64,000 nt of DNA from Tubiluchus corallicola (GCA_030141605.1 JAQGDQ010002390.1:88945-152944); one strand, 5' to 3'. Counted from the first letter of the stretch, positions 13,021 to 53,258 are shown. Notes: generated by a model from the letters alone, not told the origin. Program-made: numbers and translations.

Positions 13021-13037
13021 AACAAACCTCTATGGAT

Positions 13038-13080
13038 AAATAGAGAGAAACAAAATAACCGTTTTCTCTCTATTTTATTT
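13038..13080 (+). terminator. Rho-independent terminator after yqhD copy 1
   Basis: A 13-bp perfect stem, AAATAGAGAGAAA (13038-13050) with TTTCTCTCTATTT (13063-13075), surrounds a 12-base loop and runs into TATTT. It separates the two yqhD copies. Confidence 0.8.
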
Positions 13081-13157
13081 CTCTGAAAATAATAAAAATT
13101 ATACGCCATCATAATGGCCATAAAATAACCACTTAATTGATAACATGGAGAAAAATT

Positions 13158-14315
13158 ATGGATAATTTTACTTTTCAAAATCCTGTAAAAATTATCTTCG
13201 GAAAAGGGAAAATCGCTTCCCTCTCTTCTGAAATTCCCAAGGATGAAAAAATCTTCCTTACCTACGGAGGCGGCAGTATTTTTAAAAATGGCGTTATGGA
13301 TCAAGTCAAAGACGCTTTAAAAAACCATACGGTGATCGAATTCGGCGGTATTGAACCTAATCCACAATACGCAACCCTGATGAAAGCCGTCTCCCGTGTG
13401 CGTGAAGAAAAATGTACCTTCCTTCTCGCGGTCGGCGGGGGATCCGTCCTAGACGGAACAAAATTCATCGCCGCAGCCACCCCCTTTCAGGGAGATGACC
13501 CATGGAATATTATCGCTAAAAGAATTCCTATCGATACAGCCCTTCCTATCGGTACTGTGCTCACCCTTCCAGCAACAGGATCAGAAATGAACCCAGGAGC
13601 CGTTATCTCCCGCGAGGATACAGGTGATAAAAGCGGCTTTAGAAGCCCTCTTCTCTATCCAAAATTCTCCATCTTAGATCCGGAGACGACCTTTTCCCTG
13701 CCTCCTGTGCAAACCGCAAACGGTATTATTGACGCTTTCTTACACGTCACAGAACAATATCTCACCTACCCGCAAAACGCTCCCGTACAAGATCGTATAG
13801 CGGAAGGGCTGCTGCAAACACTGATCGAAGAAGGGCCAAAAGCCCTTAACACTCCCCAAGATTACACCGCTAGAGCCAATATCATGTGGGCCGCGACAAT
13901 GGCTCTTAACGGAATTATTGGCGCCGGCGTCACATCAGATGGAGTCTCTCATGTCCTCGGACACCAAATCACAGCCGAATATGGACTTGACCACGGACAA
14001 ACACTCGCTATCCTCCTACCCGCCGTCATGCAGGTGCGGCAAAAACAGAAAAAAGAAAAAATTCTGCAATACGCCGAGCGAGTCTGGAATATTACAGAAG
14101 GTGACGAAAATACACGCATCTATACAGCTATTGAAAAAACAAAACTATTCTTTGAAAGCCTGAATATGCCAACATCCCTTCAAGCCTATAATCTTCCGGA
14201 AAATTGCGTCGACATACTCTATGGGCGCATTGTCGCAAAAAATAAAAACGCACTCGGCGAAAAAAAAGATATTACACCAGATATCAGTAAAGAAATTTAC
14301 CAAACAGCTTATTAA
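13158..14315 (+). CDS. yqhD: NADPH-dependent iron-containing alcohol dehydrogenase, YqhD type (copy 2)
   Basis: Tandem paralogue of the preceding gene, 385 aa, near the YqhD length. The first 15 residues are identical to copy 1 and the nucleotide wording is nearly so. All motifs are kept: GGGSIFKNGV, GGGSVLDGTKFIAAA, ATGSEMN, DAFLHVTEQY, SHVLGHQITAEYGLDHGQT. Differences cluster in the substrate region (NPGAVISREDTGDKSGF here versus NGNSVVSRKETNDKRAF in copy 1) and near GAGVTSDGVSHVL, which points to divergence after duplication. ATG 13158 has GGAG nine bases upstream; an ATG at 13137 is in frame but unsupported. Followed by a bidirectional terminator facing rne. Confidence 0.95.
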   Translation: MDNFTFQNPVKIIFGKGKIASLSSEIPKDEKIFLTYGGGSIFKNGVMDQVKDALKNHTVIEFGGIEPNPQYATLMKAVSRVREEKCTFLLAVGGGSVLDGTKFIAAATPFQGDDPWNIIAKRIPIDTALPIGTVLTLPATGSEMNPGAVISREDTGDKSGFRSPLLYPKFSILDPETTFSLPPVQTANGIIDAFLHVTEQYLTYPQNAPVQDRIAEGLLQTLIEEGPKALNTPQDYTARANIMWAATMALNGIIGAGVTSDGVSHVLGHQITAEYGLDHGQTLAILLPAVMQVRQKQKKEKILQYAERVWNITEGDENTRIYTAIEKTKLFFESLNMPTSLQAYNLPENCVDILYGRIVAKNKNALGEKKDITPDISKEIYQTAY

Positions 14316-34700: not shown

Positions 34701-35771
34701 TTATCGAAACTCTCTCTCCATCCCTTGGCGTGTAGAGAAATGATAGACTGTTTTTTGATGATACATATCCCCCGGTCTTAACAGCGTTGAAGGAAAATTA
34801 TCATGATTCGGTGAATCCGGAAAATGTTGCGCCTCCAGACAAAAACCGCTGAACGCGCCATATAAAACCCCTCTTTTGCCTAAGAGACTCCCATCCATAT
34901 AAGCGCTGTTGTAAAACTGCACGCCGGGCTCCGTCGTTCGCATGCTCATTAATCGACCGCTTTTAGGATCATAAACACGCGCAACTTCCCGCAGCTCCCC
35001 TCTGCCTCCTCTTAAAACATAATTAATATCAAAAGCGCCATCTCGCATACCTTCCATAGCGTCCTGAAGAGCCCGTTCACAACGAAAATCATACCCCCTT
35101 CCCTCAACAGATAATAATGACCCCGTCGGTATTAAACGATCATTGACCTCCGTGACATAATCCGCCGCTATCCAGAATTTATGCCGGCAAATATCCCCAG
35201 AACCCTGACCTGAAAGATTAAAATATCCATGATGGGTCATATTGACAATCGTCGTGCGATCACTCTCTGCCTTATAATCAAAAACCAAACTGTTATCCGC
35301 CGTTAACGTTATTGTCACATACGTTTTTAAATTGCCCGGATACCCCTCTTCACCATCTGGGGAAACACGCGTAAAACAAACAGAAGCCTCATCCTCTTTT
35401 CGCGAAGCGTAACTGGACCAGAGATGGCGATGAAACCCATTCTCTCCCCCATGAAGATGATTGTTAAAAATAGCCTCGTTACACGGAAGACAATAAGATG
35501 CCCCATCAAGCGTAAAACACCCACGATCAATCCGATTACCATAGCGCCCGACAATCACTCCTAAATAGGCGCGATCCCTTTGATACGAGGCTAAATCGTC
35601 AAACCCTAAAACAATATCCTCCTCCCGCCCTTGCCGATCCAACACCGTAAGAGACATCACCGTCGGACCATAATCCATCAGCCTCATAGACATGCCTCGC
35701 TTATTTTTTAAAAAATAAGCCATGACCTCGCCTTCCTCACATACCCCGAAAACAGACTTTTCAACGTTCAT
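34701..35771 (-). CDS. galM: Aldose 1-epimerase (galactose mutarotase)
   Basis: Interconverts alpha and beta anomers of free hexoses. 356 aa, beta-sandwich family. Substrate-binding GRYGNRI, His in NNHLHGGENGFH, catalytic His in MTHHGYFNLSG and the catalytic Glu in GFCLEAQHFPDSPN are visible, and the C-terminal LLRPGDMYHQKTVYHF is typical. No signal peptide. The start overlaps the tatC stop by four bases, with GGAG just upstream, so it is translated from the tat transcript although unrelated to export. It may serve hexose and uronate use together with uxuA. Confidence 0.94.
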   Translation of the reverse strand: MNVEKSVFGVCEEGEVMAYFLKNKRGMSMRLMDYGPTVMSLTVLDRQGREEDIVLGFDDLASYQRDRAYLGVIVGRYGNRIDRGCFTLDGASYCLPCNEAIFNNHLHGGENGFHRHLWSSYASRKEDEASVCFTRVSPDGEEGYPGNLKTYVTITLTADNSLVFDYKAESDRTTIVNMTHHGYFNLSGQGSGDICRHKFWIAADYVTEVNDRLIPTGSLLSVEGRGYDFRCERALQDAMEGMRDGAFDINYVLRGGRGELREVARVYDPKSGRLMSMRTTEPGVQFYNSAYMDGSLLGKRGVLYGAFSGFCLEAQHFPDSPNHDNFPSTLLRPGDMYHQKTVYHFSTRQGMEREFR

Positions 35772-36616
35772 GATATCTCCTTCTCTTTATCAATTTCATC
35801 GCCGTTCTTTTTTCTCTCGGAAGAACGCAGCAGAAAAATAGACCCCTCATAAAGAAAAATAAGCAGCCCCGCGAGAAATACTTGACTCACAGGATCCGGA
35901 GGTGTGAAAATCGCAGCGATAACAAAGGCTAAAACAACCATTATACGACGCCATCGCCTTAACATGCTGGCTTTTAAAACACCCACCTTCCCTAAAATCA
36001 TAATCACAATAGGTATCTGAAAACAAACCGCAAACGCCACGATAATATGAATGGAAAGAGACAGATACTCATTAACCTTCGGCAATAAAGAAATAGGGAT
36101 ATCCTGCCCATTTCTAACCTCAAACTGTATAAAAAAACGCCACGCCACCGGAATAACCCAAAAATACGCGACAGCAGCGCCTCCCCACCACAGCAAAGGC
36201 GACAAAAGAAATATATCCCCAAAAGCTTTTTTCTCCCTCGGATATAATCCCGGTACAATAAAACGCCAAATATGATATAAAATTATAGGAGACCCTAAAA
36301 AAAACGCACAGAAAAACGCCAGCTTTACATTAGTGATAAACGCTTCATGAAGCGCCGTGTAAACAATCTCAACATCACGCCCTTCCAAAGCGACAATCCG
36401 CTGAAGCGGACGCGCGAGAAACAGAAAAATCTCACGCGAGAAATAAAAACTCACTAAAAATAAACCCAGAAAAACCCAAAGCGTACGGATAAGACGCTGG
36501 CGCAATTCCGATAAATGCGCCGCCAAAGGCATGGCTTCCGACTCTTGCGCACCCTGCGCCGCCGACGTCACACCTGCTGAAAAAACACTCTCTTCCTTCT
36601 TTTTTTCCTTTGCCAT
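35768..36616 (-). CDS. tatC: Sec-independent protein translocase TatC
   Basis: Membrane core of the Tat translocon that recognises twin-arginine signals. 282 aa with six spans. The N-terminal cytosolic phrase AAHLSELRQRL, preceded by about 29 extra polar residues, is the most conserved part; next come FYFSREIFLFLARPL, the YTALHEAFITNVKLA segment and ILYHIWRFIVPGLYPREK. A basic C-terminal tail ends KEKEIS. It lies 12 bases after tatA; no tatB is found between them. Confidence 0.96.
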   Translation of the reverse strand: MAKEKKKEESVFSAGVTSAAQGAQESEAMPLAAHLSELRQRLIRTLWVFLGLFLVSFYFSREIFLFLARPLQRIVALEGRDVEIVYTALHEAFITNVKLAFFCAFFLGSPIILYHIWRFIVPGLYPREKKAFGDIFLLSPLLWWGGAAVAYFWVIPVAWRFFIQFEVRNGQDIPISLLPKVNEYLSLSIHIIVAFAVCFQIPIVIMILGKVGVLKASMLRRWRRIMVVLAFVIAAIFTPPDPVSQVFLAGLLIFLYEGSIFLLRSSERKKNGDEIDKEKEIS

Positions 36617-36628
36617 TCAACAGTATCT

Positions 36629-36850
36629 CTAGCTATCCTCACTGCCTTTGTCTCGCAAAGAATCCCTTTTTGAAGATGGCGGCTCATCTTCTTTTTTCTC
36701 TGGAGAATCCGTTTCCCTCATCTGCTGTTGAAACGCTTTCATCCCCTTGCCAAGATCTTCCATAATCGCCGAAATCTTTCCCTTCCCGCCAAAAAGAATA
36801 ACCACAATCAAAAGAACAATTAACCAATGCCATATACTGAATATTCCCAT
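36629..36850 (-). CDS. tatA: Sec-independent protein translocase TatA
   Basis: 73-residue protein with one N-terminal membrane helix (IWHWLIVLLIVVILFGG) followed by the TatA hinge FGGKGKISAIMEDLGKGMKAF and an acidic, polar tail. TatA rather than TatB by its length, FGG hinge and GKG pattern. It is the only TatA/B-type gene at this locus. AAGGA precedes the ATG. Operon order tatA-tatC-galM. Confidence 0.92.
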   Translation of the reverse strand: MGIFSIWHWLIVLLIVVILFGGKGKISAIMEDLGKGMKAFQQQMRETDSPEKKEDEPPSSKRDSLRDKGSEDS

Positions 36851-36884
36851 AAAATAACGTCCTTATATCTCAATAAATAAAAGC

Positions 36885-37328
36885 TTACGGCAGCCTCCCC
36901 AACTTCTCTACACGCGCCATATGCCTCTTCCCTTCAAAATCAGTCGATAAAAATATCTCTATACAGGCAAAGATCTCCACAGGCTCCATCGTTCGAGCCC
37001 CAACACATAAAACATTCGCGTCATTATGTCGCCGCGCCAATGCCGTATACGTCGTATTAAAAACAAGCGCCGCTCGAAGAAAGGGAAATCGATTCGCCGC
37101 TATACTCATGCCGATTCCCGTCCCACAAACCAAAATCCCTCGCCGCGCCCTGCCGACTCGTAACTCTTCCGCGAGACGCGCCGCATAATCAGGGTAATCC
37201 GCCTCTAAACCTTCCTCCGGCCCTACATCATACGAAACAATTCCACGCTTTGTAAGCCACATGGCAATATCCCGCCGCAACGCAACACCTACATGATCAC
37301 CTGCGACAACAATCGTCTCTTTATTCAT
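36885..37328 (-). CDS. rpiB: Ribose-5-phosphate isomerase B
   Basis: Interconverts ribose 5-phosphate and ribulose 5-phosphate. 147 aa, RpiB/LacAB family. VVAGDHVGVALR, YDVGPEEGLEADYPDYA, the active-site Cys in CGTGIGMSIAANR and ARRHNDANVLCVGAR are intact. Directly upstream in the same direction is uxuA (28 bases), and tatA lies 34 bases downstream. It would connect pentose phosphates to prs and may also serve the FGGY-kinase pathway at 45 kb if that yields a pentulose phosphate. Confidence 0.94.
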   Translation of the reverse strand: MNKETIVVAGDHVGVALRRDIAMWLTKRGIVSYDVGPEEGLEADYPDYAARLAEELRVGRARRGILVCGTGIGMSIAANRFPFLRAALVFNTTYTALARRHNDANVLCVGARTMEPVEIFACIEIFLSTDFEGKRHMARVEKLGRLP

Positions 37329-37356
37329 TATTCTTCCTGATAAATCGTCATTACCA

Positions 37357-38400
37357 TTAGCGGTTTTCTTTCTCGATAGCTTCCCAAAGACCCAGCAAAT
37401 AAGAAGCGCCTAACGCTCTGTCATAAAGGCCGTACCCGGGACGTCCCTCCTCTCCCCAGATCATCCGCCCATGATCCGGACGAACATACCCCTTAAAGCC
37501 AACATCATGATACGCTTTCATAATCTCATACATATCCAGGCTGCCACAAGACGATAAATGCGCCGTTTCATGAAACCCGTTCTGCGTATGCTGAATATTT
37601 CTACAATGCGCGAAATGAATACGATCCATCCCTCCAAAACGCGCAATAGCCTTCGGTAAATCCATCATCCGATTAGGCCCCAGAGAACCACTACATAACG
37701 TCAAACCATTAGCGCGATTGTCGACAAGCGATACAACACGCTCTAACGCTTCCATCCCTGTAATAATACGAGGCAAACCAAAAATCGGCATCGGAGGATC
37801 ATCCGGATGTAACGCTAAAACAACACCCGCTTCCTGAGCCACAGGAACAACCCTTTGTAAAAAATACGCCAGATTTCCCCAAAGCTGCTCATCATCAATC
37901 TGCGACCAGCTTTCCAACAAAGAACGTAACTCCTCTGCGCTCCATGTTGTCGCCCAGCCCGGCAAATCCATCGCGCCCTGACGTAAATCAATATGAGAAA
38001 GTTCATCTTCATCAAAACTTAAACATGTGGAACCATCCAAAAGCGGCATCGCTAAATTTGAACGCGTCCAATCAAAAACTGGCATAAAATTATAACAAAT
38101 AACAGAAACACCCGCTTTTCCCGCGTTTTTTAAACTTTCACAATAATTATCAATATAACGATCGCGACTCGCCAGCCCCAGCTTTATATCCTCATGAACA
38201 GGAATACTCTCAATAACAGGAAACGATAAACCAGAAGCCTCAATTTCCCCCTTGAGATCCATAAGACGCGAGAGCGGCCAAACATCACCTATCGGTATAT
38301 CATAAAGCGCCGTAACAATACCATCAACCCCAGGAATTTGACGAATATAGCCAAGAGAAACCGGATCATCCTGCCCATACCATCTGAACGTCATATGCAT
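37357..38400 (-). CDS. uxuA: D-mannonate dehydratase
   Basis: Dehydrates D-mannonate to 2-keto-3-deoxygluconate in glucuronate breakdown. 347 aa TIM-barrel protein. Family blocks: [73 protein letters not shown] and HFAHCRNIQ, then [21 protein letters not shown] is eight bases before ATG 38400. The usual uxuB, uxaC and kdgK are not nearby, so the rest of the pathway must be elsewhere. A perfect 14-bp palindrome sits in its upstream region. Confidence 0.95.
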
Positions 38401-42706: not shown

Positions 42707-43645
42707 TTACGACGATACTACATCATAAATCATCTTATACCTTGTATAAAAAAAATAATCACTATGACGATGAATACTCAATACCTGGCTATGAGGGACA
42801 TTATCTATGGAAAAAGAAGGCGCCTTCGCTCCAATAGTCAGCGCCTGCCCACCAATAAAAATAGAAGACTGATTTAAAAAAAGCTCATCAAGCATACGAT
42901 ACCGCATCATACCCATTAAAAATGTCGGGCTTTCATTAAGCAGACGATCGATCCCTATCCGCTTGAGTACTCGTAGCAAATAGAGAATATCAATACCATC
43001 ATGGTTACCACAGGAAAGAAGCGCTAATGACCCCCTCAAAGGAGAAAGCGCGCTTATCTTTGGCGCTTGCCCTAAATCAAGAAATGGCCGCGGTAATTTT
43101 TTTCTCATAGCCTCGTGCCCTAAAGGCGTCGTGACAACAAGCGTCGCAATTGCATCATTAGTAATAATTTGGCTTTCATAAGGAAAATCAGCGCCATCAA
43201 AAGAAACAATAACATGCAGCGGAACCGCAGCACGACCTTCACGGACACGCTGCTCTTCTAAATCAACATCAAAAATACAACCCGTCAGAGCAGGTTCTTC
43301 TTTTATCGTTTTATCACCCATCAATACAGCATCGGACGCAGCGCGCAGTAAATTCAAAACCCAATAATCACATAAACCACCGTCAGGATCCATTTTGTTC
43401 TGCTTTGCAATCAGTGCCCCATCCGGATCTTCAGGAAAAGCAATACGCCCGTCAATAGAAACAACGTAAGAGCCAAAAGTATAGGGGCGTGTTCGCGGTA
43501 TAGGAGGAAATAGAAAATCACCATATACCTTCCGCACTTTTTCACAGGAAAGAACCCGCTCGCTAAAATCCTCTAAAGAAGAACTTTTATAAATAGACGT
43601 GAGTTTAATTTTTTCCGCGGGAAAATCTTTTTTTAAATGAATCAT
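42707..43645 (-). CDS. RibD C-terminal-domain (DHFR-fold) reductase-like protein, paralogue 1
   Basis: 312 aa. After about 60 N-terminal residues comes a RibD_C/dihydrofolate-reductase-like domain: RPYTFGSYVVSIDGRIA, ASDAVLMGDKTI, VPLHVIVSFDG, IDRLLNESPTF and LDELFLNQSSIFIGG. The deaminase domain of true RibD is absent. In RibD-type reductases the loop near the nucleotide usually reads EGG; here it is ESP. True relatives reduce the ribosyl side chain of a pyrimidine in riboflavin synthesis; what this one reduces is unknown. ATG 43645 is chosen because AAGGAG lies six bases upstream; the frame stays open further up but without homology. It ends the island operon, 390 bases behind its paralogue. 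Confidence 0.8.
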   Translation of the reverse strand: MIHLKKDFPAEKIKLTSIYKSSSLEDFSERVLSCEKVRKVYGDFLFPPIPRTRPYTFGSYVVSIDGRIAFPEDPDGALIAKQNKMDPDGGLCDYWVLNLLRAASDAVLMGDKTIKEEPALTGCIFDVDLEEQRVREGRAAVPLHVIVSFDGADFPYESQIITNDAIATLVVTTPLGHEAMRKKLPRPFLDLGQAPKISALSPLRGSLALLSCGNHDGIDILYLLRVLKRIGIDRLLNESPTFLMGMMRYRMLDELFLNQSSIFIGGQALTIGAKAPSFSIDNVPHSQVLSIHRHSDYFFYTRYKMIYDVVSS

Positions 43646-44035
43646 TATATGCTCCTTACCGTTAAAAGCCTTTAAGATGAATGACCTCTCATACCATGAC
43701 TGCCATCCCGCCCATTTCACACTGAAAAATTCCAGCGATACACTCAGATAAATTATAACGACATGCGCCCTCGCGCGTAAAACACGCAACCGCAAGATGT
43801 TGACACTATTAGGGCAGGCTTCTCTACAAAGGCAGAAACTACAGGTTTTTATGAAATATATCAGCCCGCGGCATATCCGGCTTTGTTTCTTTTTTAGAGT
43901 TGCGTAAAACCCCTTTCATAACGGGAATAAAGCAAAAGAACGCTTTTGTAAAATTTCTGCGCAAAATGGTAAATCCGTTTAAATCAAATCAGCATGACAA
44001 TAACATGTATCGCCCTTTAGCATAGATGCCTATTC
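43646..44035 (-). promoter_or_regulatory. 390-base gap with possible promoter for RibD-like paralogue 1
   Basis: No gene is supported here. On the minus strand a perfect TATAAT (43752-43757) lies 107 bases before the paralogue 1 start, with only a weak TTACGC at 17 bases. No T-run hairpin follows paralogue 2, so read-through from the main operon is also possible. Confidence 0.3.
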
Positions 44036-45022
44036 CTATAGTTTCTTTGCCTCTGTTATATTGTAAATAAATAAATGACGAAAGAAGAAAAAATGCGCAT
44101 TGGCAGCATGGGCAGATACTACTTCAGTATGAGGATGATCCGATGACGTATAACTATCACCGAATTTACCAAGACTCATAGCGTCACCACCAATATACAC
44201 ACAAGACATATTTAAAAAGAACTCATCCATAAATTCTTGCGTCGTCAGATAATGCCCATAGGCCGGCGATTCAACTAAAATATATCGATAGTTCGCCCGC
44301 CTGATAAGAAACATAAATAAAGATGTATCAGGCATACTGTTTGTACCCGTAACAATGACAAGAGTACGCTCCTTAGATATTTGCCGCAACGCTTTGCTGA
44401 TTGTCGTTTGCTCCTTAAGGGCAAACTCTTTATCACCATAAGGACCAAGAATATCAAAGGGCAGACGCATAGATCGCTGTATATGCGCTAATCCATCCGG
44501 CGATGTCATAATGATAACAGGATGCTCCGCCGAAGAAAATATCATATGATCAAGAGGAATATCCCGCGCATCCAAACTGACAACAATATGCAAAGGAACT
44601 CTTCCCAATCCCGCTTGTATACGGGCATCCTCAAGCTCCTTATCATAGATATGCATGGAATATTCAGGATCATCCCGCAAAGAATTCCCCCCAATAATAG
44701 AGGCGTCGCTTACAGCCCGTAGAGCGTTAAGCATCCAAAAATCAGCTGTTTTTCCTCCTTCTGCCAGCAAGTTCTTAGCGGCAATATAAAAAGGGCTCGG
44801 GCGATCCTTATACGCGATCTTACCATCAATAGATGTTACATAAGACGAAAAAAGATAAGGACGATGCGCCGGCGCCTCTGGAAAAGAGAGAGAAGCGCCC
44901 AATATATCATTAATTTTTGATGATTTAATCGGCGTATGGGAAAAACATTCCTTTTTTACATTACTGAAAATAGGCGTAAGTCGAATTTCCTCAGTAGGAA
45001 AATCGAAATAAGAAAAACGCAT
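44036..45022 (-). CDS. RibD C-terminal-domain (DHFR-fold) reductase-like protein, paralogue 2
   Basis: 328 aa, homologous to paralogue 1 over its whole length including the N-terminal extension (FDFPTEEIRLTPIF here, KDFPAEKIKLTSIY there). The DHFR-like domain shows RPYLFSSYVTSIDGKIA, VSDASIIGGNSLRDDPEY, VPLHIVVSLDARDI, YILVESPAYG and MDEFFLNMSCVYIGG. Again no deaminase domain and ESP in place of EGG. ATG 45022 has AAAGGAG upstream and lies 13 bases after the kinase stop. An open frame extends 94 codons upstream into the kinase gene but is not homologous. Conserved duplication suggests two related substrates or a heteromer. Confidence 0.8.
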   Translation of the reverse strand: MRFSYFDFPTEEIRLTPIFSNVKKECFSHTPIKSSKINDILGASLSFPEAPAHRPYLFSSYVTSIDGKIAYKDRPSPFYIAAKNLLAEGGKTADFWMLNALRAVSDASIIGGNSLRDDPEYSMHIYDKELEDARIQAGLGRVPLHIVVSLDARDIPLDHMIFSSAEHPVIIMTSPDGLAHIQRSMRLPFDILGPYGDKEFALKEQTTISKALRQISKERTLVIVTGTNSMPDTSLFMFLIRRANYRYILVESPAYGHYLTTQEFMDEFFLNMSCVYIGGDAMSLGKFGDSYTSSDHPHTEVVSAHAANAHFFFFRHLFIYNITEAKKL

Positions 45023-45035
45023 AATAAAATCTCCT

Positions 45036-46460
45036 TTAAGATAATTGATCCATAAGATACACACAGCGCATATGCCGCCGAAATAAGGAATCATACTGTC
45101 GTTGGTTTTTCTCATTTGGGATAATTGTCTCTTGGCGCAAAAACCATTTATTCGACAAATCCTCAAAACAACGGATATACCCCGTGGCAAAACCAGATAA
45201 AAAAGCAATGCCCAAAGCTGTCTGATTCTGATCAGAATACTGTAACGAACGACCAAGAACATCCGCGATAATCTGCCGAAAAACAGAGCTATTAGCACCG
45301 CCACCAGTAATATTAATATGGGTTATTTTATGAGAGTAATCCTGCAAATTGCTTCGTATATTATAGGCAACTCCCTCTAAAACAGCACGATATAAATGCC
45401 CCTTATGATGAAACGGGCGCATACCAAGAATATATTCCGCATCCTTTTCTTTCTTGCCCGCCTCCGGCTGTTGCTTATAGTGGGTTATATAATGAACCCC
45501 TTCACAACCAGGAACACTGTCATTGGCCATCGCGTTTAGCATATCCCAATCCTTATGAGACGTTAAGGCGCGAAAATGCTCCATGCTCTCGCCACAAGAG
45601 AGAATACGCCCAACAAAATGCGCGCGCCCCTCACAGAAATGAAAACTACTCATCAATTGCTCCGGCGATTGCAACGCGTGAATAAGCGTCGCGGACGTGC
45701 CAAGGTAAATCATTAATTGACCCGCCCCTAAAACACCCCCCCCTAACATAGAACTAAAAGAATCTCCCGTGCCAGTAATAACCTGACATTTTTCCGATAA
45801 GCCAAGCTCCTTGCGCATAGATTCCCGCACCTTGCCTAATACATGATTAGAAGCATATGGAGGAGGAAAAAGACGCTGATCCAAACCTAACGCTTCAATA
45901 ACTTGATGATTCCATCTATGGGCATTGGTATCAAATACACCGCCAACAATACACGCGGTGTCATAATCACAACTAACGTTACCAGTGAGCTTATAAGCAA
46001 GATATCCATGAGGAACAAGAACATTGGCCGCTTTCGCGTAAATATCAGGCATATTATTTTTTATCCACAAAATCTTCGGAAGCATAAATCCATGATGAAT
46101 AGGAGAAGATAAACACTTGTTGATAAAGGACAGCTCTTTTTGCGCTCGAGTATCTGTATGCATGATAATGGGATGCAAAGGCTCTTCTCGTGCGTCAACT
46201 AAAACAACACCCGGCACATAACCGGTGAAACCTATGGCGACAATATCTTTTGAATCAACGCCTCCTTGCGTACATAAACCTTGTATGCTCTCCTTAAACT
46301 CTTGCCATAATTGGTGCGCGTTTTGCTCTTGATAACCCGGTTTAGGCGTTTCTATCTGATGCGGGAAATGCTGCCGCGCGACAACATCCCCATCAACCGT
46401 CGTTAAAATAGCCTTTGCGCCCAGCGAGCCCGCATCAAACCCTATTAGATACTTAACCAT
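45036..46460 (-). CDS. FGGY-family carbohydrate kinase
   Basis: 474-residue sugar kinase, xylulokinase/ribulokinase-like. The N-terminal ATPase fold opens with YLIGFDAGSLGAKAIL; AIGFTGYVPGVVLVD and HTDTRAQ follow; the catalytic Asp is at about 231 in TGTGDSFSSMLGGG; the C-terminal half has LEGVAYNIRSNL and the ATP motif ITGGGANSSVFRQIIADVLG. Members phosphorylate pentuloses, glycerol, erythritol or related polyols; the exact sugar cannot be read. It lies between the Zn dehydrogenase (32 bases upstream) and RibD-like paralogue 2, and so should phosphorylate the ketose made by the dehydrogenases, ahead of the aldolase. Confidence 0.9.
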   Translation of the reverse strand: MVKYLIGFDAGSLGAKAILTTVDGDVVARQHFPHQIETPKPGYQEQNAHQLWQEFKESIQGLCTQGGVDSKDIVAIGFTGYVPGVVLVDAREEPLHPIIMHTDTRAQKELSFINKCLSSPIHHGFMLPKILWIKNNMPDIYAKAANVLVPHGYLAYKLTGNVSCDYDTACIVGGVFDTNAHRWNHQVIEALGLDQRLFPPPYASNHVLGKVRESMRKELGLSEKCQVITGTGDSFSSMLGGGVLGAGQLMIYLGTSATLIHALQSPEQLMSSFHFCEGRAHFVGRILSCGESMEHFRALTSHKDWDMLNAMANDSVPGCEGVHYITHYKQQPEAGKKEKDAEYILGMRPFHHKGHLYRAVLEGVAYNIRSNLQDYSHKITHINITGGGANSSVFRQIIADVLGRSLQYSDQNQTALGIAFLSGFATGYIRCFEDLSNKWFLRQETIIPNEKNQRQYDSLFRRHMRCVYLMDQLS

Positions 46461-46492
46461 CTTTTTCCCTCCCTTTACCTAGGGTATGCGCG

Positions 46493-47515
46493 CTAAAAAG
46501 TCAAAACAACACGATAACTCTCCAACGAAGCGGCGCGCTCAAAGGCCTCATCCAGCCGCTGAAGCGTAAATAAAGCAGATACAAGCCCCTCTAATGGCAA
46601 CGTCCCCTGGTTAACTAAAGCAACAGCACGCCGAAACGTATCTCTTGAATGTTTGGTTACACCCGTCAGATTAATTTCGTTATAATGCAATAGCTTGGGA
46701 TCAAGTGAGATAACATCCTCCTTCCCCGTGCCGCCATAAATAACACACGTTCCACCAAACGCCAATAAATCAATAGACTGGCTAATGGCACGATGACCAC
46801 CAGCTGTAAAAAAGGCGGCGTTCGCTCCAATGGAAGAAAGAGACAGTACAGTTTCCTCCAACTTGCCCGGAGATACAGAATAATGAATACCAAACGCCTT
46901 TGCTTTTTCACGACGCGCACCATCGGGCTCACTTAAAACAACTGTCGCACCTCGATCCTGCGCCAAGAAGGCATGCAAAATACCCATAATACCACCACCA
47001 GTAACAATAGCGACATCTCCCAGCTGCAATTGAGCTTTATCAATACTTCTGATAACACAGGCCAGCGGCTCACAAAGCGTCGCGACAGATAATTCGGTAC
47101 CGTCCCAAAGTTTATAGACTTCATAATCCCTAGCCAGAAAATATTCCGCATATCCAGCAGGACCATTATAACCGGCAATCATCGATTCATCGCTAGCGTT
47201 AAGACATAAATTATCTAAACCACGTTGACAATAGGCGCAATGACCGCATCGCGTCAGGCTGGCCACGGCCACCTTATCACCAACAGCAAGATCTCTTGTT
47301 TTTATATTGCCGCCAATCTCTTCAATAACTCCGCTAATCTCATGACCGCCAATAAAAGGAAAAATATCACCATACCCACCGCTGAGTATTTTCCGCTCCC
47401 ATGTGCATATACCAGCCGCTTTTATTTTGACCAATATACGATCATCACCGCAAATAGGCTTGTCTACATCCGCAATAGCAAGTTCATTCGCCTTGGGCAT
47501 AACAACAATCTTCAT
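46493..47515 (-). CDS. Zinc-binding medium-chain dehydrogenase
   Basis: 340-residue MDR alcohol/polyol dehydrogenase. The catalytic-zinc ligands are Cys in AAGICTWERKI (Trp-Glu in place of the usual Gly-Thr-Asp), His-Glu in GGHEISGVI and Glu in CEPLACV. The four structural-zinc Cys lie in CGHCAYCQRGLDNLC. The Rossmann motif is VTGGGIMGI. Closest in style to threonine, sorbitol or xylitol dehydrogenases. AAAGGAG precedes the ATG. It lies 11 bases after the aldolase stop. Probably oxidises a hydroxyl of the imported compound or a sugar alcohol to a ketose for the downstream kinase. Confidence 0.9.
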   Translation of the reverse strand: MKIVVMPKANELAIADVDKPICGDDRILVKIKAAGICTWERKILSGGYGDIFPFIGGHEISGVIEEIGGNIKTRDLAVGDKVAVASLTRCGHCAYCQRGLDNLCLNASDESMIAGYNGPAGYAEYFLARDYEVYKLWDGTELSVATLCEPLACVIRSIDKAQLQLGDVAIVTGGGIMGILHAFLAQDRGATVVLSEPDGARREKAKAFGIHYSVSPGKLEETVLSLSSIGANAAFFTAGGHRAISQSIDLLAFGGTCVIYGGTGKEDVISLDPKLLHYNEINLTGVTKHSRDTFRRAVALVNQGTLPLEGLVSALFTLQRLDEAFERAASLESYRVVLTF

Positions 47516-47526
47516 TGATATCTCCT

Positions 47527-48312
47527 TTATTCTTCCATCAAAATGGATTCAGCGTCATTTACAGTAGCATCATCATGAATAATCGCCGCAACGGCTTTTG
47601 TCATAGCCACAGGATTATCAGCTCCCCAAATATTACGCCCAATAGCAACACCAGCGGCGCCAACATCTATAGCCGTTCGGATAGAAGCAAAAAATCCCCG
47701 GTGATCATCACTTTTACTCCCGCCTAATATGACAACAGGGCAAAAACTCTCTTCAATAACTTTTTCATAACCATCCGCATAAGGAGCCTTGATGAAATCA
47801 ACACCAATCTCACTACCAATACGACAATCAGCGGCAATATGCTTTAATGTCCGAAAAGAGGGGTCACCGTCAAACCCTCCGGGAACCATTTCACCGCATA
47901 CAGGCATACCAAGAGGATCACACTCAGCGACCAAACGCGCTATGGAAGGAAAGGTCTTTTCCTCAACGCCAATCCCCTGACCTCCATTGACAATCACAGC
48001 GTCAGCCCCTAAACGCAGAGCGTAATCCGCGTCAAATACCTTACGACTATCATGCCCTTGACCAGACATAGTCGGTGGTAAATCCGTGCGTGCTATAAGA
48101 CCAATATCAGCAAGCTCCGCGCTAAAACGACGAATAACACCCATGTTAGCAATAACAGCGTCAGCGCCACCTTGAACAACTCTCTCAATAGTTTCTCCAG
48201 GGCAAATAAGACCAGGAGACGCGCCATTGAAAGTACCATGATCCATAGCCACAATCAGGGTTTTCTTATCTTTTTTGAATATCCGTCTTAAACGTCTTGT
48301 TTTATCCATCAT
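47527..48312 (-). CDS. Class I (DhnA-type) aldolase, LsrF/FbaB-like
   Basis: 261-residue TIM-barrel aldolase of the DhnA family. Motifs: VAMDHGTFNG (phosphate and substrate site), the Schiff-base Lys at about 175 in VDFIKAPYADGY, VVILGGSKSDD and AGVAIGRNIWG, the C-terminal phosphate-binding site. Family members cleave fructose 1,6-bisphosphate, work in the archaeal DKFP route or, as LsrF, act on phospho-AI-2. Here it would cleave or thiolyse the phosphorylated ketose made by the FGGY kinase. Two ATG codons are adjacent (48312 and 48309); AAAGGAT fits the second slightly better. Confidence 0.9.
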   Translation of the reverse strand: MMDKTRRLRRIFKKDKKTLIVAMDHGTFNGASPGLICPGETIERVVQGGADAVIANMGVIRRFSAELADIGLIARTDLPPTMSGQGHDSRKVFDADYALRLGADAVIVNGGQGIGVEEKTFPSIARLVAECDPLGMPVCGEMVPGGFDGDPSFRTLKHIAADCRIGSEIGVDFIKAPYADGYEKVIEESFCPVVILGGSKSDDHRGFFASIRTAIDVGAAGVAIGRNIWGADNPVAMTKAVAAIIHDDATVNDAESILMEE

Positions 48313-48352
48313 TTTATCCTTTATTTACATTTTATATTAAGGTTCTTACTCT

Positions 48353-49060
48353 TTATAACTCCCGCTCGATAGAATAGAGATCACTACGATACCAACTATG
48401 GCAAAATTCTATAGGTCTCCCATCCTCAAGAAGAGATATACGTTCAATATTCAATATAGGATATCCCGGATGCACGCCCAAAAGGCTCGCTTTTGTATCA
48501 TCAGCTAAAACAGCATTGATTTTTTCTTTAATACGAGCAATCGTATGGCCAGTAATTTTGCGTATACCTTCATACAGAGATTCTGTTCGATAATCAAAAC
48601 GAAACAAATCAGGGCAATGAATAGCAGGAACAATCGCTTCCTGCACAACTAAAGGCATATTATTCACAATGCGTAAACGCTCCAACACAAAGACTTCTTT
48701 ATTCTTGTGTGATAAAGAGAGCTTCCCAGCCACCTCTTTTGACGCAACCATTATCTCCTTTCTCCAAATAACATTCGTTATTTGATACTTTTTTTGCTCC
48801 ATAGAGTCTTTAAGGCTATAGGTTTGTAGCGTATCAATACGTGGTTTATTCACAAATGTACCAGAACCTTGTTTGCGTGTAAGATATCCGTCAAAAACAA
48901 GAGCATCCAAAGCTTTACGCACAGTCATTCTGCTGATTTGATGTTGTTTCGCCAGTGCTGCTTCTGGCAAAATTCGTTCACCAACCTTATACTTGCCTAA
49001 TACAATATCAGAACGGATATCCTCATACAGTTTTTTATAAGCAACAACTGAAGTACTCAT
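48353..49060 (-). CDS. GntR/HutC-family transcriptional regulator
   Basis: 235 aa. An N-terminal winged helix-turn-helix (about 8-72: YKKLYEDIRSDIVLGKYKVGERI, then ISRMTVRKALDALVFDGYL and KQGSGTFV) is followed by a UTRA effector domain (about 95-230, with VLERLRIVNNMPLVVQEAIV and ending PIEFCHSWYRSDLY). HutC-type regulators usually repress and release DNA when they bind a sugar phosphate or similar pathway ligand. It lies inside the operon it probably controls; the palindrome TTGTATATACAA over the operon promoter is of the size and sequence type this family binds. AAAGGAA lies before the ATG. Confidence 0.92.
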   Translation of the reverse strand: MSTSVVAYKKLYEDIRSDIVLGKYKVGERILPEAALAKQHQISRMTVRKALDALVFDGYLTRKQGSGTFVNKPRIDTLQTYSLKDSMEQKKYQITNVIWRKEIMVASKEVAGKLSLSHKNKEVFVLERLRIVNNMPLVVQEAIVPAIHCPDLFRFDYRTESLYEGIRKITGHTIARIKEKINAVLADDTKASLLGVHPGYPILNIERISLLEDGRPIEFCHSWYRSDLYSIEREL

Positions 49061-49142
49061 TAACTATTCCTTTCTTTATTTCATGCAGATACAATATCTT
49101 ATCATAAAAATATCCGCATAATATAAAGAACCTCCCACAGCG

Positions 49143-49943
49143 CTATTTCAAAATAATACCACCATCTACCTCTATAGACTGACCTGTTAAAAAACGTGAA
49201 TCATCCGACGCTAAAAAAGCGATAACACCAGCTTGTTCCCATGGCTCCGCATTCCTTTTTAGCGCCGTATCTTGCGCCCGCATATCAAGCCACTCTTCGC
49301 CGCTCATATCACAGTATTTCTGCCCAACCGTATCAGCGACCTGAAGAACCATTTTTGTCAGAGTGTTGCCGGGACAAAGAGAGTTAGCCGTTACACCATA
49401 CTCTCCCAACTCCATGGCGACAGAACGGGTAAGACCTATAACACCTGATTTAGATGCTGAATATTCAGCCGTGCCCGGCCAACTGGTATTGCCAGCCATA
49501 GAGGAAACATTGATAATGCTACCAGAACGCTGCTGCTTCATAATAGGCGCAACCGCCTGATTATATAAAAACGTACCGGTAAGATTGATGTCTATCAATT
49601 TCTGCCATTGAGTAAACGGAACTTTGTCAAGATCCGCGCCCGTATAAATACCAGCCGAACATACTAATACATCTATCCTGTCAAATACGCTCATTGCTTT
49701 TTCGACCGCTTTTTTCGCCAACCCCTCTGTCTCAACAGGCTGATTGATAACACACGTTTCCACCCCATACGCGTCACGACACTGTCGTGCGGTTTTCTCA
49801 TTTTCTTCCGCGTTATGATCAACACAGATAATATGAGCACCCTCTTTTGCAAAACGATAGGCCGCCGCCTCTCCAATACCCGTCGCAGAACCGGTAATCA
49901 TTACAACACTATCGGTAAACCGCTTCATGTTTGCGTGTTTCAT
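49143..49943 (-). CDS. Short-chain dehydrogenase/reductase
   Basis: 266-residue classical SDR. Cofactor motif GSATGIGE near residue 18, NAG equivalent CSAGIY, active-site Ser near 148 in INVSSMAG, Tyr161 and Lys165 in AEYSASKSG, and the C-terminal SRFLTGQSIEVDGG. An Asp after strand beta2 (VDHN) predicts NAD(H). GGAG is six bases before the ATG. Only two bases separate it from the permease stop, so it is tightly coupled to import. A second oxidation step beside the Zn dehydrogenase, for example polyol to ketose, is the likely role. Substrate unknown. Confidence 0.92.
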   Translation of the reverse strand: MKHANMKRFTDSVVMITGSATGIGEAAAYRFAKEGAHIICVDHNAEENEKTARQCRDAYGVETCVINQPVETEGLAKKAVEKAMSVFDRIDVLVCSAGIYTGADLDKVPFTQWQKLIDINLTGTFLYNQAVAPIMKQQRSGSIINVSSMAGNTSWPGTAEYSASKSGVIGLTRSVAMELGEYGVTANSLCPGNTLTKMVLQVADTVGQKYCDMSGEEWLDMRAQDTALKRNAEPWEQAGVIAFLASDDSRFLTGQSIEVDGGIILK

Positions 49944-49945
49944 TG

Positions 49946-51532
49946 TTACTTCTCCTCATATGTTGTTGATTTGTTTGTACTATTTTCAGTGATAGAATAT
50001 CCTAAAAAGACTAAACCCATAACTAGATACGTAGCGACAATAGTGGGATTTTCCATAAACCCAACACTTTGCGCGTGAATAAGACCTATCGCCGCCAAAA
50101 AAGCTCCGGCAAGAACAGATACCCCAACAGCGCGCCATTGATTGTCAATGATATAGCATGTGATTGTACCCAGCAGAACGGCTGAGAACATAGCGCCAGA
50201 AGCAATGGTCGCATAAGCCGGCGAAACACCCGCATTGGTAAAAATATCAGCACTCACCTGAACACTATAAATATCAATATCTCCGGTATTAACCCCCTGG
50301 GTATTCATAAAGTCTATCAATGCGTTTTTACCCGCTTTGGTCGCATTGACTATTTTTTGATTTATTAACTCATAAATAGGAAAGCATAAAGCCAAGCCAA
50401 GAGCTGGATAATGCCTCTTTGGCGATACCTCAAAAGCCTGCGCTGTCGAAAGTAAAGCAATAAAAATAAGAAGCGGATAAGTCGCCTCAACAGGAATAAT
50501 AGAGACCAATAACGCCGAAAGACCAGTAATACATAAAAATAGATGAAAGACACCCGTCATTAATGGATAGGACGTGGTAGCGCCCACTTTCTTCCAGCCT
50601 GGATGCCCCCAATACAACGCAATAGCAAAAGGATTGCCAAAGAGCGAATTGATAATATTGATAACGCCAACACCCATGATCATATGCCGTGGCGAATAGG
50701 ATTCACCTGACGCCTCGGCTTGCTCCAGCGCCTGAATAGACGCAACCACATCACCAAAAGTAAAGGTTACAATCACCGCCAAAAATGGCAATGCCGCCTG
50801 AAAACACTCCCCAAGTAAAGCCAGTTGAAAAAATGGAAGAAAAAAACCGACCTCATCAAGTGAGTTGCGAACAGCGGCCACTTCCATATTGCCAGTTGAC
50901 CACGCAATAACACTACCAATACCAACAATCAAAATAGCAGTGGGAAAACGGGATTGAACATTACCAAAGTAAAACACAAAGGCCGTAACCATCGTTGGCA
51001 AAAGCACAACAAACTTTACAAAACCATCCGCAACAGGGCTAAGAACAAGCCAAGTCAGCGCACCCCCAGCAAGAGCGCCAAACAACGCACCTTTAGGAAT
51101 ATATTTTAAAATATAAGGCGTTAAAAAACCACAAATAATAAAAATTAACCCGCCAATAATATTCGCGCCAATACCAGCTTTCCAAGCATGCATGAAATCA
51201 CCACCGGAAGCAAAATACGCAGGAAGCATCACCGCAAATAGATAAACAAAAAATCGTCCAGCCCCTAAACCGCCAGGAAGCGCCGTAACATCAGGATTAT
51301 TTGTTTTCTTCGCCAATTGACGCGCCATATAAACTAAGAAACCAGTCCATATCAAATCCCCTAAACCAATGGCTGGAATAAGCTGGCCGAATAAAATATC
51401 ATTTGGCATATGCATCACGCCAGCAAGAACCGCAACACCAACCAATATTTTTACAAAACTGTCAAAAAACACACCAATAGATGCATCCCAATCTCCTTTT
51501 CTCCATAAAGGAATTTTTATTGCTTCATTCAT
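49946..51532 (-). CDS. NCS2-like (xanthine/uracil permease type) transporter, paralogue 1
   Basis: 528-residue permease with about twelve to thirteen membrane spans. It resembles the nucleobase/ascorbate (NCS2/AzgA-like) transporters: DSFVKILVGVAVLAGV, PDVTALPGGLGAGRFFVYLFAVMLPAYF, FGDVVASIQALEQAEASGE and the unusual GNPFAIALYWGHPGWKKVGA where NCS2 proteins carry a substrate-site loop. Known relatives carry purines, pyrimidines or (in animals) ascorbate, by proton or sodium symport. The start overlaps the stop of paralogue 2 by four bases. Being in one operon with a sugar kinase suggests a non-classical substrate. Confidence 0.82.
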   Translation of the reverse strand: MNEAIKIPLWRKGDWDASIGVFFDSFVKILVGVAVLAGVMHMPNDILFGQLIPAIGLGDLIWTGFLVYMARQLAKKTNNPDVTALPGGLGAGRFFVYLFAVMLPAYFASGGDFMHAWKAGIGANIIGGLIFIICGFLTPYILKYIPKGALFGALAGGALTWLVLSPVADGFVKFVVLLPTMVTAFVFYFGNVQSRFPTAILIVGIGSVIAWSTGNMEVAAVRNSLDEVGFFLPFFQLALLGECFQAALPFLAVIVTFTFGDVVASIQALEQAEASGESYSPRHMIMGVGVINIINSLFGNPFAIALYWGHPGWKKVGATTSYPLMTGVFHLFLCITGLSALLVSIIPVEATYPLLIFIALLSTAQAFEVSPKRHYPALGLALCFPIYELINQKIVNATKAGKNALIDFMNTQGVNTGDIDIYSVQVSADIFTNAGVSPAYATIASGAMFSAVLLGTITCYIIDNQWRAVGVSVLAGAFLAAIGLIHAQSVGFMENPTIVATYLVMGLVFLGYSITENSTNKSTTYEEK

Positions 51533-53100
51533 TGAACGTCTCCCTCTGTAATCTCCTTTAATTCGGCTGTTATATGTTCTATGTAGTTTTTTCTATGATT
51601 TATATGCAACGCAAAACAGATAAGCGCCAGCATCGCATAAATGGGCATAAAAGAATTTGACAACGGGTTTTGCAATGCTAATTTTGGCGCGTGTATAAGA
51701 CCCACAAACGCAAATAACGCAGCGATAACACTTGTAATGGACGCATGTACATATTTTTGCGCAATAACAAAAGCCAGCAAAGACGCTAAAATTAAACTGG
51801 ATAAAAAACCACCCTGAGATAATACATAGATACCCTGAAGAGAAGCGTGTTGATATTCCAATTCAAACAAGAGCGATTTTATATCACGCTGCAGAGGCGC
51901 TAATACAGTATCCAATATATTATGAATAAATTGTATCGTCACGGGAACAAAAGAAAGGTAAATCACAGGATAATATTTCCTATCACTTGCCTCAAAAGCC
52001 TGCGCCGCTGTAATAAAACCTATTGTAATAAGAAAAATGACCGCGATATAATAAGGGATAATCGTGCCAATAAGCATAGGCAACCCAAAAAATAACGATA
52101 CATAAGCAACCGCCGTCAAAACAAGATAACCCGATCTGGCACCAATATGCTTCCAGCCAGGATGCCCCCAATAAATAGTACAAGGAAAAGGACTGCCAAA
52201 ACTCGACCCCAATATGGTACAGGCGCCATCCATAAAAAGAGAAGACGACGCCGGATATTTATCTCCCGCCACTTCAGCGCTTTTAAGCGACTGCAATGTG
52301 GAAACAATATTGGCTATCTGCAACGGTATAACAATATGAAGATAATCCCAGACATACGTAAATCCCGCCAACACATCATGAACAGCAAGCTCAGGAGGGT
52401 AAAACTTCATATATGCCGCTGATTCTGTGATTTTTTGAAAATATAACGCATCGTTATACCATGTAAGAAGCACACCTATTAAAACAGCAATCAAACCAAT
52501 CGGCACACGAACATGTCTGAAATTTCCAAAAATAAAAAATAGAACAATAAATAACGGCAAAACAGCTTCAGCCGGATGATTGAAAACAATAATACACCCT
52601 TGAAGACCCAACCAAATAAAAGAACCAGCAGCCATGTTTCCCAACAATGCCGAAGACGGAATAATACGTAGTATAAACTTTCCCCAAAAAACAGCGCTTG
52701 CCTGAAAAATACCACCCAGAAAACAGGCGGCAATACCAATTTGCCACGCTAACAAAGCATCTTTCGTGCTTTGGTAAACAGGGAGAATGATCAAAAATAA
52801 CCAACCAAAAGACTGCGTGGCCCCAAGACCAAAAGGCTGCGCCGTCACATTGGTATCCTGCTTTTGGTAAGCCAGCTTGAACGCGGCAAAAATATACCAA
52901 AATAAACCCAATAAAACAGATAACCCTATCGCCGGCAAAATTCGCCCCAGTGTAATATCAACAGGAAGCTTAATAACAAACAGTAACGTCGCTGTTATAG
53001 CCAGTATTTTTGAAAAACCATCAAATAATAGACCTAAAAAAGCATCAGCATCCCGCCGTGTTATCCACTGATATGAAAAATTGCCATGAGCCATTTTCAT
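51529..53100 (-). CDS. NCS2-like (xanthine/uracil permease type) transporter, paralogue 2
   Basis: 523-residue paralogue of the neighbouring permease and first large gene of the operon. It keeps the same landmarks: DGFSKILAITATLLFVI, DTNVTAQPFGLGATQSFGWLFLIILPVY, IVSTLQSLKSAEVAGD, GSPFPCTIYWGHPGWKHIGA and TAAQAFEASDRKYYP. The shared YWGHPGWK motif sets both apart from textbook xanthine permeases. The ATG at 53100 has GGAG six bases upstream. ATGA coupling to paralogue 1 suggests balanced production, perhaps as a hetero-oligomer. Substrate not known. Confidence 0.82.
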   Translation of the reverse strand: MKMAHGNFSYQWITRRDADAFLGLLFDGFSKILAITATLLFVIKLPVDITLGRILPAIGLSVLLGLFWYIFAAFKLAYQKQDTNVTAQPFGLGATQSFGWLFLIILPVYQSTKDALLAWQIGIAACFLGGIFQASAVFWGKFILRIIPSSALLGNMAAGSFIWLGLQGCIIVFNHPAEAVLPLFIVLFFIFGNFRHVRVPIGLIAVLIGVLLTWYNDALYFQKITESAAYMKFYPPELAVHDVLAGFTYVWDYLHIVIPLQIANIVSTLQSLKSAEVAGDKYPASSSLFMDGACTILGSSFGSPFPCTIYWGHPGWKHIGARSGYLVLTAVAYVSLFFGLPMLIGTIIPYYIAVIFLITIGFITAAQAFEASDRKYYPVIYLSFVPVTIQFIHNILDTVLAPLQRDIKSLLFELEYQHASLQGIYVLSQGGFLSSLILASLLAFVIAQKYVHASITSVIAALFAFVGLIHAPKLALQNPLSNSFMPIYAMLALICFALHINHRKNYIEHITAELKEITEGDVQ

Positions 53101-53111
53101 TGATTACTCCA

Positions 53112-53165
53112 CTACAGGAACGCAATCGTATTTTTATCTGAATAAATGAGAAGAAACATCTCCAT
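53112..53165 (-). CDS. Possible 17-codon leader peptide upstream of the permease operon
   Basis: MEMFLLIYSDKNTIAFL, starting with ATG 53165, lies within the predicted 5' leader. A GGGGGG tract sits eight bases before the ATG. Its stop (53112-53114) falls 11 bases before the permease start, so ribosomes could re-initiate there. It may be chance. Confidence 0.25.
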   Translation of the reverse strand: MEMFLLIYSDKNTIAFL

Positions 53166-53229
53166 CACATATCCCCCCTTTAAGCAACATAATTATCTTT
53201 AATATATCTTTCTTAAATGTGCTCACTAT

Positions 53230-53258
53230 ATTGTATATACAAATTTAACAGGCGTCAA
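53230..53258 (-). promoter_or_regulatory. Promoter and palindromic operator of the permease/kinase operon
   Basis: On the minus strand TTGACG (+ coordinates 53253-53258), exactly 17 bases, then TACAAT (53230-53235). A perfect 12-bp palindrome TTGTATATACAA (53231-53242) covers the -10 and part of the spacer, where a repressor would block RNA polymerase. The start of the first permease gene is about 130 bases downstream. The GntR/HutC protein encoded in the operon is the obvious candidate to bind it. Confidence 0.7.

Follow-up and report, generated by a model that had tools for sequence, protein, structure and literature searches.

The closest described relative of the operon reported here, which occupies positions 42,707-53,258 of a 64,000-nucleotide stretch (the window) of the Tubiluchus corallicola assembly (GCA_030141605.1 JAQGDQ010002390.1:88945-152944), is fin, a riboflavin-induced gene neighbourhood of Clostridium scindens, with counterparts in Faecalicatena and Muricomes, encoding the RibF-like FinB, the class I aldolase FinC, the alcohol dehydrogenase (ADH) FinD, the aldehyde dehydrogenase FinG, and the glycine-reductase-like FinHI (PMC12934955, a 2026 preprint). 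The operon and fin have in common a class I DhnA-type aldolase, a zinc-type ADH, and a kinase gene, whereas in fin the kinase is of the RibF type and not FGGY, the regulator differs, and genes for aldehyde dehydrogenase and glycine reductase are present. The Lsr system for autoinducer-2 (AI-2) also combines an FGGY kinase (LsrK) with a DhnA-type enzyme, the aldolase/thiolase LsrF, acting on a phosphorylated sugar-like molecule; however, the nine genes of the operon include no Lsr ABC importer and no LsrG-like gene. Aerobic riboflavin catabolism through RcaE (the lumichrome pathway) likewise strips the flavin side chain as a carbon source, but by an oxygen-dependent monooxygenase and a different gene set, with no mention of a kinase or permease (PMC12746152). 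Clusters of FdrA, DUF1116, DUF2877, and carbamate kinase genes include a "xanthine permease" of the same permease family (29.6-30.7% identity) and no other gene in common with the operon. Literature searches on this exact gene set, on clusters degrading pterins, and on methenyl-tetrahydromethanopterin cyclohydrolase family (MCH) proteins with purine in Clostridia found nothing described, in keeping with the first-pass annotation, which knew of no pathway with this set; the operon looks like an undescribed cousin of fin.

A conserved, co-regulated operon

We identified nine uninterrupted open reading frames (ORFs) on the minus strand, running from 53100 to 42707, with the following features (loci L010-L014 are those of the genome scan described below).

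53230-53258, minus strand: promoter-like site, -35 TTGACG at 53258-53253 and -10 TACAAT at 53235-53230, a consensus match only
53231-53242, no strand assigned: predicted GntR/HutC operator, the perfect palindrome TTGTATATACAA, overlapping the -10
51529-53100, minus strand: NCS2_1, predicted NCS2-fold permease, 523 aa, 38-40% identical to the permeases of L010, L011, L013, and L014
49946-51532, minus strand: NCS2_2, predicted NCS2-fold permease, 528 aa (structure model pLDDT 78.5)
49143-49943, minus strand: SDR-type dehydrogenase, 266 aa (adh_short_C2 E 2e-56)
48353-49060, minus strand: GntR/UTRA regulator of the HutC subfamily, 235 aa (UTRA E 2.3e-32, GntR E 1.7e-17)
47527-48312, minus strand: class I aldolase of the DhnA/DeoC-LacD type, 261 aa, a sister of FinC (DeoC E 1.4e-27)
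46493-47515, minus strand: zinc-type dehydrogenase (ADH), 340 aa (Pfam ADH_N/ADH_zinc_N), with FinDs nearest outside its own cluster
45036-46460, minus strand: FGGY carbohydrate kinase, xylulokinase-like, 474 aa (FGGY_N E 2.8e-50)
44036-45022, minus strand: RibD-like_B, RibD_C superfamily, 328 aa (RibD_C E 5.5e-7; model pLDDT 80.8)
42707-43645, minus strand: RibD-like_A, 312 aa, 33% identical to its paralogue RibD-like_B (RibD_C E 9.3e-12)

NCS2_1 and NCS2_2 overlap by ATGA (51532-51529), and after them the gaps on the transcribed strand measure 2, 82, 40, 11, 32, and 13 bases, with 390 separating RibD-like_B from RibD-like_A; the spacing is as first annotated (eight tight genes with gaps of 2-82 bases and one ATGA overlap, and a ninth 390 bases on), with all ORFs intact. 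Start codons were refined to ATG at 45022 for RibD-like_B and ATG at 43645 for RibD-like_A, the longer ORF calls using upstream GTG or TTG, and intergenic inverted repeats lie at 43826-43886 and 49072-49130. Seven of the nine gene identities first proposed were borne out by Pfam or NCBIfam models; the two permeases matched no Pfam (including Xan_ur_permease) or NCBIfam model and keep the name NCS2-like as a fold only.

Five loci (L010-L014) came out when bacterial genomes were scanned with the RibD-like pair, the searches for relatives being centred on Bacillota genomes. Three of these, from Muricomes intestini DSM 29489 (L012), a Bacillota metagenome-assembled genome (MAG; L013), and Hespellia sp. 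(L014), carry RibD_A-DhnA-ADH-FGGY-RibD_B-NCS2_2 in one order together with GntR, and L013 and L014 have NCS2_1 too. Identity to the window proteins across these three loci was 61-62% for DhnA, 43-44% for FGGY, 45-49% for ADH, and 43-46% for RibD_B. A fifth genome (G584, locus L140) has the row BMP-GntR-FGGY-DhnA-SDR-RibD-like, in which FGGY shares only 22% identity with that of the window, so the gene combination recurs independently with a distant kinase. Recurrence of the core set in four other genomes makes the grouping more than chance. The first-pass annotation named, as one outcome that would refute its reading, genes not kept together in other genomes; in L012-L014 they are kept together.

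Promoter-like sites numbered 33 across the region against 29.4 expected, and because there is no excess, the hexamers alone are weak evidence for the single promoter that had been placed ahead of the gene series, although a site was found at that position. The search for TTGTATATACAA gave 1 match against 0.13 expected with at most one mismatch allowed. Its core, GTATATAC, fits NyGTMTAKACNy, the operator consensus of the HutC subfamily (PMC4494728), and the regulator of the operon is of the GntR plus UTRA type, which points to a predicted HutC-class operator at the target promoter. The core was found ahead of the operon in the window (53233), L012 (9937), L013 (3003, 3011, and 3027), and L014 (5106, 5146, and 5248), and also ahead of gntR in L013 (12618) and L014 (14457), over a background of 19 copies in the 789 kb of all other loci; a second copy in L012 (10895) is intragenic, and a second copy in the window (33106) lies outside the operon. 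The window GntR is 36-38% identical to those of L012-L014, and since operator core and regulator are shared by all four loci, the two seem to travel with the operon. With the same gene order and a shared predicted operator in L012-L014, loci of distant gut bacteria, the operon is a real, co-regulated unit conserved across phyla, as the proposal of a single catabolic unit had it.

Kinship of the sugar module to fin

M. intestini is said to carry the fin neighbourhood (PMC12934955), which we recognized in locus L068 by Flavokinase, Aldedh, GRDB, Gly_reductase, and DeoC domains, with an ADH present; it is separate from the L012 operon and has no RibD-like protein, NCS2-like permease, or GntR. When aldolases from 295 genomes were ranked against the window DhnA, those next after its own kind were of FinC type and stood beside FinD-type genes. 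The tree grouped the window DhnA with FinC (UFBoot 91 / SH-aLRT 86, and 99/99 in a wider 11-row set), and the motif E-x-x-P-x-G-F is common to both and absent from LsrF and from MJ0400, which has YPRG there. The 34 ADH matches in three genomes were led by the cluster's own at 323 bits, followed by three FinDs at 203, 199, and 194 bits, with the next at 140 bits. The window DhnA and ADH appear to form a sister clade to FinC and FinD, outside the FinC/FinD clade, and these are their nearest relatives beyond their own cluster.

The lysine of DFIKAPY in DhnA aligns with that of ADIVKTSY in MJ0400, which we take to be the catalytic Schiff-base lysine. DhnA scored 140.9 bits for MJ0400 against 94.3 bits for LsrF, and 138.4 bits for PRK08227 against a cut-off of 297; identity of the kinase and aldolase with LsrK/LsrF was rejected because DhnA is not LsrF-like and falls short of the PRK08227 cut-off. 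The kinase belongs to the FGGY superfamily and had xylulokinases as its best matches, both among models (296.7 bits with the XylB model TIGR01312, cut-off 380.25) and in structure (2itm), and the best model matches of ADH were scyllo-inosose and threonine dehydrogenases.

Pfam found no Flavokinase or Aldedh domain in the nine window proteins, and because counterparts of FinB and FinG are absent, the operon is not a member of fin, the described system closest to it; it may work like fin, with FGGY apparently standing where fin has its RibF kinase. The first suggestion, that a polyol part is oxidized, phosphorylated, and split, finds support in this kinship of aldolase and ADH, judged by sequence.

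RibD-like proteins, permeases, and their genomic company

The model of RibD-like_B matched archaeal Rib7 (Foldseek E 2.1e-13; VIA Z 21.4 to M. mazei Rib7) and Rv2671 of Mycobacterium tuberculosis with bound pteridine (E 2.2e-11; Z 20.9). Both RibD-like proteins passed the Pfam RibD_C superfamily cut-off and scored about 20-45 bits with the NCBIfam RibD/reductase models, whose cut-offs are 150-274; a plasmid tblastn with RibD-like_B gave no match. An alignment of 41 RibD-like sequences showed E251 in 41/41, T/S at position 114 in 41/41, and E/D at position 118 in 33/41 (N in 6), and these positions match E180, T79, and D83, respectively, the catalytic residues of yeast Rib7 (PMC3631187). The family has in common with RibD/Rib7 the RibD_C fold, the S-x-DG motif, the T/S plus acidic residue, and the invariant catalytic Glu, but it differs in about 50 more N-terminal residues, E-x-P for E-G-G, and a near-invariant HPH; it also has P-x-[NTH]-[IV] against mostly P-x-R-V in the aligned Rib7s and RibDs, although the canonical RibD of L001 lacks this Arg as well; loss of particular phosphate-binding arginines of E. 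coli RibD was considered and is not asserted. Rv2671, a RibD_C protein with activity like that of dihydrofolate reductase (DHFR), has the same fold and was matched by the RibD-like family profile (E 4.4e-10), but is 17-18% identical and retains E-G-G. The RibD-like pair may perhaps form a heterodimer.

The NCS2_2 model matched SVCT1 (Foldseek E 2.7e-8) and UraA (E 2.0e-7; VIA Z 26.6, with 23.0 to UapA), giving a 7+7 fold of the UraA/SVCT1/SLC26/SLC4 type, which is common to SLC4 and SLC26 too. Comparison of the permease with true NCS2 proteins by hhalign profiles was weak (66%), a PDB sequence search with NCS2_2 gave no match, and plasmid tblastn returned only "xanthine permease" relatives at ~30% identity in unrelated clusters. 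The name "NCS2-like" is therefore correct for the fold, whereas membership of the family is unproven, and the predicted fold supports the earlier suggestion of nucleobase-type import insofar as it concerns transport of a heterocycle. NCS2-type folds bind pyrimidine-dione rings.

Of the genomes sampled, 14 of 398 from Bacillota and 3 of 397 from Lachnospiraceae encoded RibD-like proteins, in up to five copies each, and the neighbours of these proteins in Bacillota included MCH, FolB, PTPS, true NCS2 permeases, XDH, UbiD, Bmp-type ABC importers, and an amidohydrolase close to 8-oxoguanine deaminase. SDR genes stood beside RibD-like genes in L010, L011, L027, and L140. Of the 14 RibD-like genomes, 10 carried MCH (0.9 expected), compared with 25 of all 398 (P 1e-10 under independence of the genomes), and MCH and RibD-like genes were neighbours or part of one gene row in L063/L035, L040, and L010. 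An operon of a Clostridia MAG (L010, 3558-10936, and L011) comprised NCS2_1, MCH, NCS2_2, an FMN reductase-like gene, SDR, and a RibD-like gene, with no sugar module. Because RibD-like relatives stand beside purine- and pteridine-type genes, this family context, read from gene content, favours a purine- or pteridine-type ring over a free sugar as substrate.

MCH also stood in Bacillota operons alongside genes for SDR and E1/E2 dehydrogenase-like proteins, often with several copies to a genome (L063, L077-L084, and L094-L098), outside the familiar archaeal or methylotroph setting of the family. A two-domain FolB-like protein (L058, 6951-7670) and a PTPS-like protein (L025, 10344-10967) were likewise seen near RibD-like genes.

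A proposed route and its alternatives

We infer the substrate, the reactions, and their order as follows. The operon is tentatively read, at somewhat less than even confidence, as a catabolic operon under GntR/HutC control whose substrate would be an N-heterocycle of purine-, pteridine-, or flavin-like kind with a ribosyl, ribityl, or similar polyol tail. The heterocycle would be imported by the two NCS2-fold permeases, and the RibD-like pair would act on the unphosphorylated molecule, most simply by opening an N-ribosyl group and reducing it to ribityl in the chemistry of RibD/Rib7. The zinc-type ADH, the SDR, or both would oxidize a side-chain hydroxyl to a ketone, FGGY would phosphorylate the terminal hydroxyl, and DhnA would form a Schiff base with the ketone and cleave the chain to dihydroxyacetone phosphate (DHAP) and a shortened, aldehyde-bearing heterocycle. 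For a ribityl chain, a ketone at C4', phosphate at C5', and retro-aldol cleavage between C2' and C3' would release DHAP and leave the ring with a two-carbon aldehyde; with riboflavin as substrate, this aldehyde would be formylmethylflavin. The lack of a RibD-like gene in fin fits this model, because the presumed substrate of fin already has its ribityl chain. The link between a heterocycle and a polyol proposed at first is supported in kind by the sister relation of DhnA and ADH to FinC and FinD and by the pteridine- and purine-type company of the RibD-like relatives.

Several points weigh against this N-heterocycle route. The genomes with both MCH and RibD-like genes are related to one another, so the P value above is overstated; the grouping of FinC with the window aldolase joins two long branches (a tool warning), its support being moderate; and the window DhnA lacks the Tyr of the YPRG motif of the MJ0400 type. 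The Gly-Gly that follows the catalytic Glu (G181-G182 at the NADPH pyrophosphate site of yeast Rib7) is replaced by x-Pro in the RibD-like family (Pro in 41/41), and as the second Gly is required in yeast Rib7 (PMC3631187), NADPH reductase activity of the pair is uncertain. In addition, fin is tied to riboflavin by induction and not by purified enzymes, and its reported product is lumichrome rather than released DHAP (PMC12934955).

A wider scheme, speculative and rather unlikely in our estimate, is that chemistry like that of riboflavin synthesis serves catabolism in a widespread and so far undescribed way. Nucleosides of purine- or pteridine-like kind, not phosphorylated, would in Clostridia be ring-opened, deaminated, and reduced at the ribosyl group by MCH-type cyclohydrolases, amidohydrolases resembling 8-oxoguanine deaminase, and RibD-like enzymes, mirroring RibA/RibD in the catabolic direction, and the window operon would burn the resulting ribityl chain through ADH, FGGY, and the FinC-like aldolase.

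Alternatively, the RibD-like pair could be DHFR-like reductases of a pteridine ring, the substrate being a pterin that carries a polyhydroxyalkyl chain on C6 (neopterin or monapterin type) and would be brought to its tetrahydro form, oxidized at C2', phosphorylated at C3', and relieved of DHAP by a retro-Mannich reaction. One of the best fold matches, Rv2671, has been crystallized with dihydro- and tetrahydropteridine, in M. tuberculosis RibD can stand in, if weakly, for DHFR (PMC10812664), the family has MCH, FolB, and PTPS as neighbours, and two reduction steps would account for two reductases. However, Rib7 folds score as well as Rv2671, the kinship to FinC and FinD indicates a ribityl chain, and the window operon itself has no pterin-specific gene, and we regard this alternative as unlikely.

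Riboflavin or a close flavin as substrate, with the operon a fin variant using FGGY for the RibF kinase and yielding formylmethyl- or hydroxyethylflavin and DHAP, would agree with the sister relation of DhnA and ADH to FinC and FinD and with the pyrimidine-dione binding of NCS2-type folds. Both formylmethylflavin and hydroxyethylflavin are reported flavin breakdown products (PMC12934955). Possession of both fin (L068) and this operon (L012) by Muricomes, however, suggests that their substrates differ, the described fin has no RibD-like protein or NCS2-like permease, and Rfam found no riboswitch, including the flavin mononucleotide (FMN) riboswitch, in the window, L012, L013, or L014, which leaves the flavin alternative quite improbable. 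A plain sugar, polyol, or sugar-acid route (ascorbate-like or pentulose), with RibD-like proteins and permeases drifted to unrelated jobs, would suit the xylulokinase matches of FGGY, the best model matches of ADH, and a permease fold that includes vitamin C transporters, but it is the most doubtful, as RibD-like relatives repeatedly stand beside purine- and pteridine-type genes and fin enzymes come closest to the aldolase and ADH in the genomes searched; the ascorbate-like acid first offered was set aside, nothing fitting it except the shared transporter fold.

The window belongs to a contig (C755) that is bacterial, within an assembly of eukaryote size (343 Mb in 2344 contigs). The surrounding genes (recX-like, pyrG, kdsA, and eno) have an alphaproteobacterial look, judged by eye, and third-position G+C is lower in the operon (0.30-0.42) than in pyrG and eno (0.46-0.49), a weak sign compatible with transfer. 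A 16S search gave weak or partial matches only, and none of them lay on this contig. Three more RibD genes were seen on other contigs of the same assembly (G000; C892, C1820, and C652, loci L001-L003), so more than 1 bacterium is probably present. Elsewhere in the window, aldose epimerase-like, RpiB-like, and mannonate dehydratase-like genes were noted by eye near the operon (34701-38400), perhaps reflecting more sugar use, and a tandem pair of near-identical genes with the common N-terminus MDNFTFQNPVKIIFGKG (11830-14315) looked like iron-type alcohol dehydrogenases.

If the proposed N-heterocycle route is true, the operon would encode a new way for host-associated bacteria to break down a vitamin-, pterin-, or nucleoside-like compound, and two families that have no specific annotation, one RibD-like and one of permeases, would gain a function. 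The fin neighbourhood, known by induction only, would then join a general scheme in which a side chain is oxidized, phosphorylated, and cleaved off as DHAP. The GntR operator, and the occurrence of the operon in the culturable M. intestini DSM 29489, which has fin at a separate locus, make this model testable.

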